DNA of 64,000 nt from Luteococcus japonicus (GTDB lineage Bacteria > Actinomycetota > Actinomycetes > Propionibacteriales > Propionibacteriaceae). Under the pieces are notes generated by a model. It did no database searches. It saw only the letters and a program-made list of their open reading frames with translations, and was not told the DNA's origin. Location: the NCBI RefSeq assembly GCF_003752415.1, contig NZ_RKHG01000001.1:868001-932000 (forward strand). The letters are read 5' to 3'. Each line of letters opens with the position of its first letter. Position 1 is the stretch's first letter. Positions 56,522-60,858 of the stretch are shown here, in pieces. The position numbers and the translations under genes were made by a program.

Positions 56522-57193
56522 CTAGTCGCGCTTGTGGGCCAGGCCGCGCACGATGGCATCGCCGATGGACTGGATGATCTGCACGACGACCACCAGCACG
56601 ACCACCGATGCCAGCAGCACCGGGGTGTTGAAACGCTGGTAGCCGTAACGAATGGCGAAGTCACCCACGCCACCGCCGCCGATGGTGCCGGCCATCGCCG
56701 AGTAGCCGATCAGCATGACCAGGGTCAGCGTCGCACCGGCGACGAAGGGGCTCATCGCCTCCGGCAGCAGCACCTTGCGCACGATCTGCCCCGTGCTCGC
56801 GCCCATCACCCGGGCGGCCTCGATCTTGCCCGGGGAGACCTCGCGCAGGGCGGACTCCACCACGCGGCCGAAGAAGGGGATGGCGCCAATGGACAGCGGC
56901 ACCACCGCGGCCATCGGGCCATAGGCCGTGCCCACCACCAGCCGAGTGAAGGGGATCACTGCGATCAGCAGGATCAGGAAGGGCAGCGAACGAAAGACGT
57001 TGACGATGGCGCCGAAGACCTTGTTGAAGGCCTTGTTGGGACGCAGTCCGTCGTGGTCGGTCAGTCTCAGGGCCACCCCGACGAGGGTGCCGAAGACCAG
57101 GGTGATCAGGAAGCTCAGGGCCACCATCTGTCCGGTCTCGAGCAGCGCCTTCCACAGCTCTGGCAGGGACTCCGCAATGGATGTCTTGTTCAC
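56522..57193 (-). CDS. metI: Methionine ABC transporter permease
   Basis: 223 residues. MetI permease: ALLETGQMVALSFLITLVFG, FRSLPFLILLIAVIPFTRL and the EAA loop REVSPGKIEAARVMGAST. Overlaps metN by 4 bp; last gene of metQ-metN-metI. Confidence 0.93.
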   Translation of the reverse strand: MNKTSIAESLPELWKALLETGQMVALSFLITLVFGTLVGVALRLTDHDGLRPNKAFNKVFGAIVNVFRSLPFLILLIAVIPFTRLVVGTAYGPMAAVVPLSIGAIPFFGRVVESALREVSPGKIEAARVMGASTGQIVRKVLLPEAMSPFVAGATLTLVMLIGYSAMAGTIGGGGVGDFAIRYGYQRFNTPVLLASVVVLVVVVQIIQSIGDAIVRGLAHKRD

Positions 57194-58185
57194 TTGCTCA
57201 CCGTCACTCCGCGCTCGTTGAAGAACTGCCTGATCAGGGCATCGTCGAGGCCCCCGCCGTGCGGATGGTCGAAGGCGACGCGCAGCCGGCCCACCTTGTG
57301 GCCGGCGATCTGTTCCACCGAGCCGCCGAGGATGGACACGTTGATGCCCGTCTCCCGGGTGAAGGTGCTGATCAGGGGTTCGCTGACGCCCTGGTTGACG
57401 AAGCTCAGCAGCTGGCTGCGCCCCTCGAAGGCGTCCTGGGCCCGGCCGAGCGGGATCAGCTGGTCCGCGATCCGGCTCTCCGGGTCCGAGACCAGCTCCA
57501 GCAGGTTGCCGTGTTCCACGACGCGCCCGTCCGCCATCAGGGCGGCACCGTCGCAGATGCGGCGCACGACGTCCGACTCGTGGGTGATGAGCAGCACCGT
57601 GAGACCCATCCGGTCTCGAAGGTCCTTGACGAGGTCGAGGATCTGCTCGGTGGTGGTCGGGTCAAGTGCACTGGTGGCTTCGTCCATCAACAGCATCTGG
57701 GGCCGGGTGGCCAGCGCACGGGCGATGCCGACACGCTGCTTCTGTCCGCCGGAGAGCTGCGAGGGATGGGCCTGGGCCTTGTCGGGCAGCCCGACGAGGT
57801 CCAGCAGTTCCGTGACGCGGGGGGCGATGTCCTGCTTCTTCTCCCCCGCCAGTTCCAGGCCGAAGGCGACATTGTCAAAGACCGTGCGGCTGGCCAGCAG
57901 GTTGAAGTGCTGGAAGATGGTGCCCATCTGGCGGCGCACCGAGCGCAATTCCTTGCCCTGCAGCGAGGTCCAGTCGGTGCCGGCCACGCGGATGGTGCCG
58001 CTGGTGACCTCCTCCAGGTGGTTCAGGCAGCGCAGCAGCGTGGTCTTGCCCGCGCCGGAGCGGCCCAAGATGCCGTAGATCTGACCCTGCTCAATGGTGA
58101 GGCTCACGTCGTCCAGAGCCACCACCGGCGCGGCATTCTTGCCGCGGCCGGGGTAGTGCTTCGTGACGTGTTCGAAGCTGATCAC
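57190..58185 (-). CDS. metN: Methionine ABC transporter ATP-binding protein
   Basis: 331 residues. Walker A GRSGAGKTT, signature LSGGQKQR, Walker B MLLMDEATSALDP, then the C-terminal NIL (C2) domain with QSLLSFVNQ-like region that senses methionine and inhibits the transporter. GTG start (58185) overlaps the metQ stop as GTGA. The frame extends upstream but that would run through metQ. Confidence 0.94.
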   Translation of the reverse strand: MISFEHVTKHYPGRGKNAAPVVALDDVSLTIEQGQIYGILGRSGAGKTTLLRCLNHLEEVTSGTIRVAGTDWTSLQGKELRSVRRQMGTIFQHFNLLASRTVFDNVAFGLELAGEKKQDIAPRVTELLDLVGLPDKAQAHPSQLSGGQKQRVGIARALATRPQMLLMDEATSALDPTTTEQILDLVKDLRDRMGLTVLLITHESDVVRRICDGAALMADGRVVEHGNLLELVSDPESRIADQLIPLGRAQDAFEGRSQLLSFVNQGVSEPLISTFTRETGINVSILGGSVEQIAGHKVGRLRVAFDHPHGGGLDDALIRQFFNERGVTVSK

Positions 58186-59033
58186 GACTGCTTGGCGGGC
58201 AGCACGGAGCCCTGGTAGTTGCTGGTGATCCAGTCCTGGATCTCCTTGCTCTGCAGTGCCTCGGCGAGCTTGGTGACGCGCGGGTCGTCCTTCTTGTCCG
58301 CCTTGACCACCAGCAGGTTCGCGTAAGGGTTGTCGGTGGCGGTCTCCAGCGTCAGGGCGTCGGTCTTGGGCTTGAGGCCGGCCTCCAGCGCGTAGTTGCC
58401 GTTGATCACGGACAGGTCCACCTTGGCATCGTCCAGGGTGGCGGCGAGCTGCGGCCGGTCGATCTGGACGAACTTGAGTCCCTTGGGGTTGGCGGTGATG
58501 TTCTTCTCGGTGATCTGGGAGAAGTCCAGGTCCTTGTCGGTGGGCTTGACGTCGAGGGTGACCAGCTTGGCCTGCTGCAGCAGGAAGAGGGCGCGCACCA
58601 GGTTGGAGGGATCCGACGGGATGGCGATGGTGGCGCCGCTGGGGACGGCGTCGAGGTCCTTGACCTTCTTGGAGTACAGGCCGAGGGGTTCGACGTGGAC
58701 GGTCGCGGCGCTGACCAGGTCCTCGGAACCCTGCTGCTTCAGCCAAGTGTCCAGGTAGGGCTTGTGCTGGAAGAAGTTCGCGTCGACGTCGCCGCTGGCG
58801 GTGAGCTGGTTGACGTCGATGTCACCGGCGATGCCCTTGATCTCGATCTTGGTGTCCCCGAGCACGCCGAGCTCGTCGACCTTCTTCAGGATGTCGGTGT
58901 GCGGGGTGGCGTCGGCCAGCACGACGAGCGGCTTGGAGGCGTCGGTGCCGGCGCCGGCACCGCAGGCCGTCAGTCCGACGGTGAGGAAGAGGGCGAGCAG
59001 GCCCGCGAAGAGCGAGCGAATGGTCCTGGTCAT
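58182..59033 (-). CDS. metQ: Methionine-binding lipoprotein
   Basis: 283 residues. Lipobox LTAC (Cys24), MetQ motifs LVVLADATPHTDIL, DANFFQHKPYLD and SVINGNYALEAGL. Binds methionine at the cell surface and hands it to MetNI. First structural gene of the operon. A ribosome-binding site AAGGA sits 7 bases upstream. Preceded by a 129-base leader and the Met/Cys-rich peptide gene at 59163. Confidence 0.94.
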   Translation of the reverse strand: MTRTIRSLFAGLLALFLTVGLTACGAGAGTDASKPLVVLADATPHTDILKKVDELGVLGDTKIEIKGIAGDIDVNQLTASGDVDANFFQHKPYLDTWLKQQGSEDLVSAATVHVEPLGLYSKKVKDLDAVPSGATIAIPSDPSNLVRALFLLQQAKLVTLDVKPTDKDLDFSQITEKNITANPKGLKFVQIDRPQLAATLDDAKVDLSVINGNYALEAGLKPKTDALTLETATDNPYANLLVVKADKKDDPRVTKLAEALQSKEIQDWITSNYQGSVLPAKQS

Positions 59034-59162
59034 GTCAATCCTTCGTGATGGTCCCGGGCACGGGATGCGAATGCGTGATTTGCGGCTGGCTTCCTGACAA
59101 CACCACCGGGAGCTTGGCTCGACCGGGCCCACCCGTTTCCGGGCAAGATGCGAAAGGCGTTG

Positions 59163-59246
59163 TCAGCCGAACATTCGGCGCATCATGGGCGCGCAGCACA
59201 TCACGGGCATGGTATGGCCCGTCATGATCTCGCACTTGCATGGCAT
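59163..59246 (-). CDS. Met/Cys-rich leader peptide of the metQNI operon
   Basis: 27 codons (first residues MPCKCEIMTGHTM, then PVMCCAPMMRRMFG). Seven Met and four Cys. Starts at ATG 59246, stop 129 bases before metQ. A -10 TAGATT (minus, 59254-59259) ends 7 bases before the ATG, so the peptide would be translated from the very 5' end. The density of sulfur amino acids, directly upstream of a methionine transporter, is the hallmark of a translation-sensing attenuator. The downstream 129 bases contain GC hairpins (CCCGG-AAA-CGGG near 59120, CCCG-TGCC-CGGG near 59055). No SAM riboswitch was recognised. Role is inferred. Confidence 0.7.
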   Translation of the reverse strand: MPCKCEIMTGHTMPVMCCAPMMRRMFG

Positions 59247-59253
59247 GCCGCAG

Positions 59254-59284
59254 AATCTATCCTGCCGCGCCTCCTCGGTGCCAA
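59254..59284 (-). promoter_or_regulatory. Probable promoter of the metQNI leader
   Basis: TTGGCA (minus, 59279-59284) and TAGATT (59254-59259) with a 19-base spacer. Transcription is predicted to begin at or near the A of the leader-peptide ATG. Confidence 0.55.
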
Positions 59285-59304
59285 TCCAGCCAGAGTGTGG
59301 GCGT

Positions 59305-59718
59305 TCAGGAAGGCATCGGCTGCTGTCGCAGGGTGAGGGCACAGACGTCATCGGAGCAGGTGAAAGCCCCTTGCCAGTCCGGGTTGTGGAAGAGCATCGA
59401 GTCGTTGGCATTGGCGTCGACCTGCCAGCCCGTGGGAAGTCGACCGGCCAGCCAACCGGACAGGAGCCTGCGCTGGCTAGGGTCCGCGGTGAGGGTGACG
59501 ACATTGGGTTGGTCGATACGGCTGGTCACCGCGGTCTGCGCCGGGAGCCAGAAGTCCCGGGGCCCGTGATTGAAGAGCAGTTCGCGCAGGGTGACTCCCC
59601 CGGCCGGTGGGGTGGGGCTGGGCCTCGCGGCACCAGTGCTGGTGACGGCGGCGGGCTGGCCCGATGCGCAGCCAGCCAGCAGCAGGATGCCGACAAGGCC
59701 TGCAACAAGACGTCTCAT
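59305..59718 (-). CDS. Putative lipoprotein
   Basis: 137 residues. Signal with lipobox LLAGC (Cys17), Pro/Thr-rich linker, then a compact domain with DFWLPAQTAV, TLTADPSQRRLL and a Cys pair in FTCSDDVCALTL. No domain recognised. Its ATG overlaps the TetR stop, so the TetR gene and this gene are co-transcribed. Confidence 0.7.
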   Translation of the reverse strand: MRRLVAGLVGILLLAGCASGQPAAVTSTGAARPSPTPPAGGVTLRELLFNHGPRDFWLPAQTAVTSRIDQPNVVTLTADPSQRRLLSGWLAGRLPTGWQVDANANDSMLFHNPDWQGAFTCSDDVCALTLRQQPMPS

Positions 59719-60320
59719 GCGCCATCTCCCGGAAAGTCGGCCGCGGCGCGCGCCAGGTGCACCATCCAGGCGGGGCCATGCCGTCGCAGGTCCTCGTGGG
59801 GCGCGGTCAGCGCGTGCAGGATCAGTCCGTCCATGGCGGCGATGGCCAGGCGTGCCGCCACCTCGGGTTCCGTGACCCCTTGGGCGGCGAGGTGCCCCGC
59901 GGCCATGTCCACGAAGCCCTGTCGCCACCGGGCGATTGCCTCGCGCAGTTCCGGGCGATGGGAGGCATACAGGAAGAGTTCGAAGCGCGCCCGCTCCGCC
60001 TCGGGGTCCGTCAGGAATCCGGCGGCCATCGCCCGCATCGCCTCGTCCTGGGTGGCCTCGTCCATCACGCCCGGCTCCAAGGTGGCTCCATCAACGGTGG
60101 CGGCGGCGTGCTCCAGGAAGGCGTCCCCCGAGTGGGCCATGTGCTCGAGCACGGCGGCCAGCAGGTCCTCGCGGGAACCGAAGTGGTAGCGCGTCGATCC
60201 GCGGGCCACGCCCGCCTCCTCCTCGACGCTGCGGTGGGTGACGGCCTGCACGCCGCTGGCGCCGAGCAGGCGCACGGCGGCGTCCAGCAGCCTGTCCCGC
60301 GTCGTGCTTGATCCGTCCAC
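59715..60320 (-). CDS. TetR-family repressor
   Basis: 201 residues. N-terminal DNA-binding domain (LLDAAVRLLGASGVQAVTHR and VEEEAGVARGSTRYHFGSRE). GTG at 60320 was chosen because TAGCCT (minus, 60327-60332) lies 6 bases upstream; GTG at 60326 would clash with the -10. A double dyad at 60336-60370 precedes it, shared with the divergent broken methyltransferase. Confidence 0.9.
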   Translation of the reverse strand: MDGSSTTRDRLLDAAVRLLGASGVQAVTHRSVEEEAGVARGSTRYHFGSREDLLAAVLEHMAHSGDAFLEHAAATVDGATLEPGVMDEATQDEAMRAMAAGFLTDPEAERARFELFLYASHRPELREAIARWRQGFVDMAAGHLAAQGVTEPEVAARLAIAAMDGLILHALTAPHEDLRRHGPAWMVHLARAAADFPGDGA

Positions 60321-60335
60321 CCCCACAGGCTAGCC

Positions 60336-60370: not shown

Positions 60371-60858
60371 TGGAGTTCGAGATGGCCACCCATCCCCTGT
60401 TTGCCCTCGCCTGCTCGAGACGCCGCGGCGGCTGGCCAGCGGCGAGCGCTTCGCTGTCTCCGAAGCGGATCCGGCGGTGATCGCGCGCAGCTGGCGCCTG
60501 AGCGAGCCGTGGATCACGTCCGCACTGGAACGCTGCGCGCCCCAGTTCGGGCCAGTCAGACTGCTGGAGGTGGGCTGCGGCTCCGGCGCACACATCCCCA
60601 CGTCGCGATGTTGTGCCGGGCGACCTGACGCTGCACCAGAGCATCTACTACTTCCGCGAGCAAGAACAGACCGCCCTCTTCGAGCACCTGTCCGGCTTCC
60701 TTGCCCCGGGCGGGACACTGCTGGTCACAACCGCGGTGCGCACCGGCCAGCTGTCCTCGGCGACGCTGGACCTGTGGGGCGCAATGAGCGAGGGAACCTC
60801 GCGCCTGCCTGCCCTCCAGAGCTGGGCCCCGCCGGCACCGAAGTGGTCCTGGGCCTAG
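60370..60858 (+). pseudogene. Broken class I SAM methyltransferase
   Basis: The intact order of a methyltransferase can be followed only across frames. One frame begins at the ATG (60370) but stops soon. The next (from about 60407) reads LLETPRRLASGERFAVSEAD up to the SAM-binding EVGCGSGAH. A third frame from about 60613 continues GDLTLHQSIYYFREQEQTAL to PGGTLLVTTAV. So there is at least one frameshift and one internal deletion between motif I and the C-terminus. It was probably the target of the divergent TetR repressor. Confidence 0.75.

Follow-up and report, generated by a model that had tools for sequence, protein, structure and literature searches.

Methionine genes are usually described as being under SAM riboswitches, T-boxes or repressors, the first two being the usual RNA controls of these genes in other bacteria. 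In attenuators of the trp type the sensor codons lie near segment 1 and the stop codon at segment 2 of the leader RNA, and the 1:2 and 2:3 pairings exclude one another. The closest described relatives of the present locus are cysteine leaders of Actinobacteria: leaderless Cys-rich ORFs were reported in mycobacteria (Shell et al., 2015), and mycobacterial leaderless polycysteine ORFs reportedly act as cysteine-responsive attenuators (Canestrari et al., 2020). An earlier survey proposes cysteine leader peptides as candidates for Mycobacterium, for the cys operon of Propionibacterium acnes and for cbs of Bifidobacterium longum, describes these leaders as lacking obvious terminators, with Rho suggested instead, and states that the methionine operons of the Actinobacteria surveyed showed no conserved RNA structure in their upstream regions (Seliverstov et al., 2005; PMC1262725).

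The leader frame of this study precedes a metQNI operon of Luteococcus japonicus within the window, by which we mean the whole stretch of 64,000 nucleotides analysed. Like the mycobacterial polycysteine ORFs it is short, stands at the putative 5' end of its transcript, is leaderless as judged by its spacing, carries a run of Cys codons near its end (in the window as in 13/13 distinct metQ leaders) and would form the opening cistron ahead of an operon for sulphur amino acids; unlike them it is also Met-rich, lies before a methionine importer and has a possible 1:2/2:3 switch anchored on its stop codon. It differs too in that no consistent sequestration of the ribosome-binding site was predicted, so its membership in the polycysteine attenuators is partial. 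The likeness to trp-type attenuators lies in the sensor codons for the operon's own amino acid (7 Met before metQNI) and, in relatives, in the stop codon at segment 2 with 1:2 and 2:3 pairings that may exclude one another; since no 3:4 terminator with a U-run was found, and the window species is without 1:2, membership here is likewise partial. With the leaders of the 2005 survey it shares an actinobacterial host, a Cys run near the stop and the lack of an obvious terminator, whereas its place before a methionine importer and its conserved helix set it apart from what that survey reports (Seliverstov et al., 2005; PMC1262725). Unlike SAM riboswitches and T-boxes, the locus matches no such model. 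Our best reading is that it would be a leaderless cysteine attenuator in a variant form enriched in methionine, acting through a stop-codon-anchored RNA switch, and the mode of action is less in doubt than the family membership.

The leader frame ahead of metQNI and its conservation

The features of the locus are as follows:

59279..59284, minus strand: -35-like hexamer TTGGCA, by eye, absent from the calls of the strict scan
59254..59259, minus strand: -10-like TAGATT, 7 bases ahead of the leader ATG
59163..59246, minus strand: leaderless-type leader ORF of 27 codons with 7 Met and 4 Cys, stop TGA at 59165-59163, conserved in relatives and set against a chance control
59156..59165, minus strand: region 2, TGACAACGCC, starting on the leader stop codon and pairing with region 3
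59105..59155, minus strand: inner hairpins within the 2:3 stem (minimum-energy fold), aligning poorly with relatives
59095..59104, minus strand: region 3, GGTGTTGTCA, with 8/8 core pairs to region 2 and 0/500 shuffles as good
59052..59065, minus strand: small hairpin TCCCG-TGCC-CGGGA ahead of the metQ ribosome-binding site, by eye, in a mostly gapped stretch in relatives
59039..59043, minus strand: metQ Shine-Dalgarno AAGGA, by eye
58182..59033, minus strand: metQ, NlpA-family lipoprotein (PF03180, E 2e-69)
57190..58185, minus strand: metN, ATPase with NIL domain (PF00005 and PF09383)
56522..57193, minus strand: metI, permease (PF00528)

Reading of the ORFs bore out the frame of 27 codons, with seven Met and four Cys, that the original prediction had placed before metQ (minus strand, 59246-59163; translation from ATG 59246 to TGA 59163, MPCKCEIMTGHTMPVMCCAPMMRRMFG), as well as the 129 bases it gave between the leader stop and the metQ ATG at 59033. 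The frame sits between metQ, the operon being assigned as metQNI by domain content, and a small gene at 59305-59718 for which no Pfam match was found. Upstream of a small lipoprotein-like gene, and on the same strand as metQNI, lies a TetR-family regulator (window 59715-60326), and at 60477-60858 of the window short overlapping frames resemble fragments of a broken methyltransferase gene (VGCGSGAH). The plausible promoter of the original prediction is visible by eye as the two hexamers, 19 bases apart, with 7 bases between TAGATT and the ATG, although a strict sigma-70 consensus scan of 58950-59400 (16-18 spacing, 9/12 matches) calls no promoter. This arrangement is, as far as the letters go, the layout of a leaderless message, and its spacing is that expected if transcription begins on the A of the ATG. 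A chance control counted every ATG/GTG start of ORFs of 15-40 codons in the window (n=842): the leader alone has TANNNT 6-8 bases ahead of its start and ranks first for internal Met (6), as against a maximum of 4 in 40 Markov-simulated windows, where leaderless-type ORFs reached at most 6 Met+Cys compared with 10 in the leader.

A search for MetQ over 196 relatives gave 40 genomes at E 1e-30 or better, from which 30 loci were read, the window's included, and a further search, over 391 genomes from the order (50 with a match), added three new loci, L031-L033, making 33 in all. A leader was recognised as an ORF of 15-45 codons with CysCys, TANNNT being allowed 6-8 bases ahead of the start. Such a leader is present at 14/33 metQ loci, the window among them (L001-L013 and L016), and in 14/14 the TANNNT is followed by exactly 7 bases and ATG or GTG. 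As L007 and L008 are copies, L008 was dropped, leaving 13 distinct metQ leaders. Among the other 19 loci, 18 have no TANNNT-led ORF of 15-45 codons at all, the sole exception being L018, whose ORF has no internal Met. No leader was seen at L014, L015 and L017, although metQ seems to come first there too, and at L019-L030 a MetI-like end lies upstream in 10/12 (by eye), that is, metQ is last in the operon.

The leaders are 23 to 31 codons long, with CysCys, also the selection criterion, in 13/13 distinct leaders at 16 to 20 codons past the start; typical ends are MMMPMCCRRMPA, MMMPTCCRRMCA, LMMPMCCRRMPR and MMMPMCCRCMPA. At least three internal Met occur in 13/14 CysCys leaders, L013 having one, and in L009 and L004 Cys replaces part of the Met run. 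CCRRM is found in 8/13 distinct leaders and a CGA codon ahead of the last Met in 11/13, for which no conserved pairing partner was seen. In the six pairs formed by four close leaders (L005, L006, L011, L012), pS (0-0.07) is below pN (0.08-0.21); since silent sites change less than replacement sites, it is not the peptide itself that is kept, and we read this as a constraint at the RNA level. Frame, leaderless layout and Met/Cys content are thus retained before metQ in relatives while the sequence changes, as had been anticipated.

We infer that the leader-bearing family is the Propionibacteriaceae. Searches of the two main genera (13 and 8 genomes) gave no new metQ loci. In a check for spread beyond the family, the 80 listed loci held two CysCys leaders, both already known; a Met-rich ORF seen at L108, a Chloroflexota locus, was put down to chance.

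Pairing of the leader RNA around the stop codon

Of the GC hairpins claimed for the spacer two are present, but the one beside the ribosome-binding site lies in sequence that has no counterpart in relatives; the conserved helix is, on the alignment, not that hairpin but the stem starting on the stop codon of the leader. In the window this is a 10-bp stem, UGACAACGCC/GGUGUUGUCA (59165-59156 with 59104-59095), and two of its pairs differ from relatives by compensatory changes on both sides. The alignment comprised 12 distinct leaders, L016 and L018 being left out, and in 12/12 region 2, running from the stop and mostly TGACAGCACGG, pairs with CCGTGCTGTCGG 59-84 bases further on. Across the 12-pair helix, 94.4% of 144 cells are paired, as against 28.7-53.0% when the partners are slid, and three pairs are changed on both sides (4/500 shuffles as high), figures which lean toward this helix since RNAalifold proposed it on the same alignment. 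When the stretch from region 2 to region 3 was folded, the stem formed in 12/12 leaders (z -1.2 to -3.8; window -2.9), closing a domain with inner hairpins in each of them.

Region 3 nearly copies the CysCys codons of the leader together with the preceding base, GTGCTGTC, and these codons (region 1) can therefore pair with region 2 instead. Seven or eight of 8 such pairs are available in 10/12 leaders, six in L004 and five in the window, the last no better than shuffles (568/2000). Folding from CysCys to region 2 gave the 1:2 hairpin in 11/12 (z -1.1 to -5.6), whilst in the window it did not form (z +0.7). Both pairings are accordingly present in 10/12 aligned leaders by pair count and in 11/12 by folding, the window being without 1:2. 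Covariation of 1:2 over 23 leaders, metQ and cysteine types together, was not above shuffles (150 versus a mean of 149.96), so complementarity and folding are what speaks for this pairing. Neither helix is present in L016 by pair count (1:2 3/8, 2:3 6/8), and folding gave neither in L016 or L018.

Cysteine-type leaders of related genomes

A covariance model, R1, was built from the 12 leaders and run over the 196 relatives, where it recovered the 12 training loci and the copy in G039 at E 1.4e-15 or better; L016 was not found. The next places, in G034 (E 1.6e-7) and G102 (E 4.2e-7), both precede cysK; their leaderless-type ORFs end MCRCCRHQA and MCRCCRPRA, and their regions 1, 2 and 3 are GTGTTGTC, GACAACAC and GTGTTGTC. 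Below the 13 strong matches eight stretches were read (L144-L151), the L018 place being read within its metQ locus: L144, L145, L147 and L148 are leaders, and L146, L149, L150 and L151, at weaker R1 places, were judged to be chance. Two of the six weaker places led to a Cys leader, one before cysK (G096) and one before an SBP_bac_5 gene near a cysK copy (G024). In L147 (1659-1903) the leader, ending MCMCACCRMSN, is followed by the gene of an SBP_bac_5 substrate-binding protein, with a second copy of cysK close by, which may hint that the transporter carries a sulphur compound or peptide. Many interspersed TGTTGTCCGTTTCTGACAACA-like inverted repeats, often doubled, were noticed in G096 (contigs 206, 233, 236, 251, 296, 297, 326, 355 and others) and are possibly the ends of a mobile element.

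A survey of cysK covered 59/116 genomes, with 49 cysK stretches taken and the gene motif found in 37/50 loci scanned. Leaderless-type ORFs with any Cys occurred in seven, of which five were counted as Cys leaders, L157 and L171 (ending CCPES) being dropped; L171, upstream of a cysK copy of G060, has a leaderless-type ORF, MITERVTPSSPSFATRCCPES, with CysCys, which remains uncounted. Cys leaders upstream of cysK were also found in G024, G039, G017 and G056. A pattern search yielded two more, L212 and L214, before operons in which cysK is joined by genes for a membrane protein and, by eye, for a thioredoxin-like protein; the other in-frame leaderless-type ORFs among the loci returned (L216, L217, L254) were all known places, and L232 was dropped as chance. 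The 1:2 score of 4/8 for L214 results from taking its second CysCys, the first being the one that fits the search pattern. Cys-rich leaderless-type ORFs thus stand before cysK or cysK operons in Propionibacteriaceae at L144, L145, L148, L155, L167, L173, L183, L212 and L214, and four of these (L144, L145, L212, L214) are three-segment elements with Cys codons. The 2:3 pairing is 8/8 in 5/10 cysteine-type leaders, all five found via the model or the pattern; the cysK leaders found by neither (L155, L167, L173, L183) have no clear 2:3, with 6-7/8 in a best-of search.

The codon content of the leader follows the operon. With L018 left out, internal Met makes up 51/311 codons in the 13 distinct metQ leaders versus 19/235 in the 10 cysteine-type leaders (Mann-Whitney p 0.001), and internal Cys 40/311 versus 41/235 (p 0.006), both p values being optimistic since the leaders are related by descent. 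Since cysK in relatives lies behind leaderless Cys-rich leaders, of which some share the RNA layout, the metQ leader would be kin to the known cysteine leaders but enriched in methionine. For the window's own cysK, the stretch read holds no leader of this kind. Across 396 genomes of the phylum R1 gave one strong match, the window's own, and its four weak matches (E 1.2e-4 to 9.4e-4) had no leaderless-type ORF with at least two Cys; between these genomes and the 80 listed loci, no convincing leader was found outside the family.

Proposed mechanism and rival explanations

The leaderless-type leader peptide probably acts as a ribosome-based sensor of Met (and probably Cys) charging which switches the RNA before metQNI. 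Transcription would start on the leader ATG, and ribosomes, loading without a Shine-Dalgarno sequence, would translate its run of Met and Cys codons. With an ample supply of charged Met-tRNA, and probably of Cys-tRNA, translation would proceed to the stop codon and the ribosome would leave; in most relatives the end of the leader could then fold back (1:2), leaving region 3 free and metQNI low, most likely because Rho ends transcription in the C-rich, untranslated part of the spacer ahead of metQ. A ribosome stalled on the Met or Cys codons would cover region 1, so that 2:3 forms and metQNI is switched on. The window species shows the 2:3 half alone; its region 2 would be blocked directly by a ribosome standing at the stop codon. 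Our confidence is lowered by L016, which is without both helices, and by the cysK leaders that were found independently of pairing and have no clear 2:3.

Partition-function runs, in which the ribosome footprint was entered as a forbidden stretch, speak partly for this scheme and partly against it. In its favour, with the third codon ahead of CysCys occupied by the footprint, predicted 2:3 is at least 0.63 in 11/12 leaders, L003 having 0.17. In the ribosome-free RNA 1:2 is predicted at a probability of 0.43-1.0 in 8/12 leaders; against the scheme, 2:3 is at 0.98 or above in the other four, the window included, and in the window predicted 2:3 drops from 0.98 to 0.63 with the ribosome on a Met codon.

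In the mycobacterial polycysteine attenuators, stalling reportedly frees a sequestered downstream ribosome-binding site. Predicted openness of the metQ Shine-Dalgarno sequence (0.27-0.81 at 14 loci and four ribosome positions) shows no consistent change, and control by sequestration was set aside because the predictions for stalling disagree, L009, L012 and L013 opening and L007 closing. An intrinsic terminator was rejected as well: none is found in the window, no downstream partner of region 3 that could serve as a fourth segment beats shuffles in the 12 leaders (lowest P 0.12), and the longest T-run in the 14 leader-metQ spacers is 3. Rho-dependent termination is the favoured output step, and the C-rich stretch from region 3 to the Shine-Dalgarno sequence (127 C versus 69 G in 344 bases of 12 leaders) would suit Rho, weak evidence though this is.

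As to what is sensed, we tentatively suggest a dual sensor, in which the Met run reads methionyl-tRNA while CysCys has two roles, one in sensing cysteine and one as segment 1 of the RNA switch; such a leader would have arisen from a cysteine attenuator and been re-tuned to a methionine importer. In relatives CysCys may also take part in base pairing, so its conservation need not mean that Cys is sensed. This qualifies the Met/Cys-sensing reading of the original prediction, as does the kinship with cysteine leaders; the conserved Met-rich frame upholds it, and the interpretation, correct at its core, is supported in part. It is unlikely that the leader is instead a plain cysteine attenuator, with MetQNI in a cysteine-responsive set and the Met codons incidental or kept for the RNA. 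The constant CysCys (13/13, as selected for), the single internal Met of L013, the Cys in place of Met in L009 and L004 and the Cys-rich leaders before cysK would all agree with it, but metQ leaders have Met at twice the frequency of cysteine-type leaders, and none of the pairing segments found takes in the MMMP codons, which this pairing therefore does not explain.

A so far undescribed RNA that binds a ligand or protein, formed by the 2:3 domain with the short ORF merely marking the start of the transcript, seems improbable: the stem does enclose inner hairpins in 12/12 aligned leaders, but conservation in loops and junctions is poor, as is the alignment of the window's inner part, no Rfam family matches in the window, and the stem begins exactly on the stop codon, which ties it to translation. 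More improbable still is an arrest peptide, whose C-terminal tail, MPxCCRRM, would stall the ribosome for a small molecule such as S-adenosylmethionine rather than for uncharged tRNA. The tail is the most conserved part of the leader (CCRRM and the CGA codon, as counted above), yet its codons share bases with a pairing segment, six different residues occur before CysCys (M, V, D, Q, L, T), the window and L016 carry extra residues between CC and RRM, and silent sites have changed less than replacement sites. A frame arising by chance in an ordinary 5' region, for which the failure of the strict scan to call a promoter might speak, is scarcely credible in the face of the conservation at metQ loci, the slid and shuffled helices and the simulated windows.

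The dual sensor, if true, would be the first leader-peptide attenuator for methionine as far as we have found; among the matches listed in open-licence papers there was no methionine leader peptide, nor a metQ with a regulatory leader peptide, which is no proof of novelty. By counting methionyl-tRNA, a leader would read methionine as the ribosome itself uses it, although every protein also starts with Met. The metQ leaders beside the cysK leaders form a test set for the re-tuning of codon content between amino acids, and they offer a candidate conserved RNA switch for actinobacterial leaders, in which the 2005 survey saw attenuator parts missing (Seliverstov et al., 2005).

The original prediction had set the locus apart from SAM riboswitches, and rightly so: a riboswitch or T-box was rejected, no Rfam family reaching its gathering score in the window, and at E up to 10 the stretch 58950-59360 gave two unrelated chance-level matches and neither a SAM riboswitch nor a T-box. 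No SAM-I match was found in the genome of the window. A SAM-IV riboswitch match does occur elsewhere in it (L265 1501-1618, G000:C1:1562058-1562175; 47.3 bits, cut-off 38), directly ahead of an ORF without a Pfam match, and riboswitch and leader-peptide control by methionine compounds may therefore coexist in one cell.
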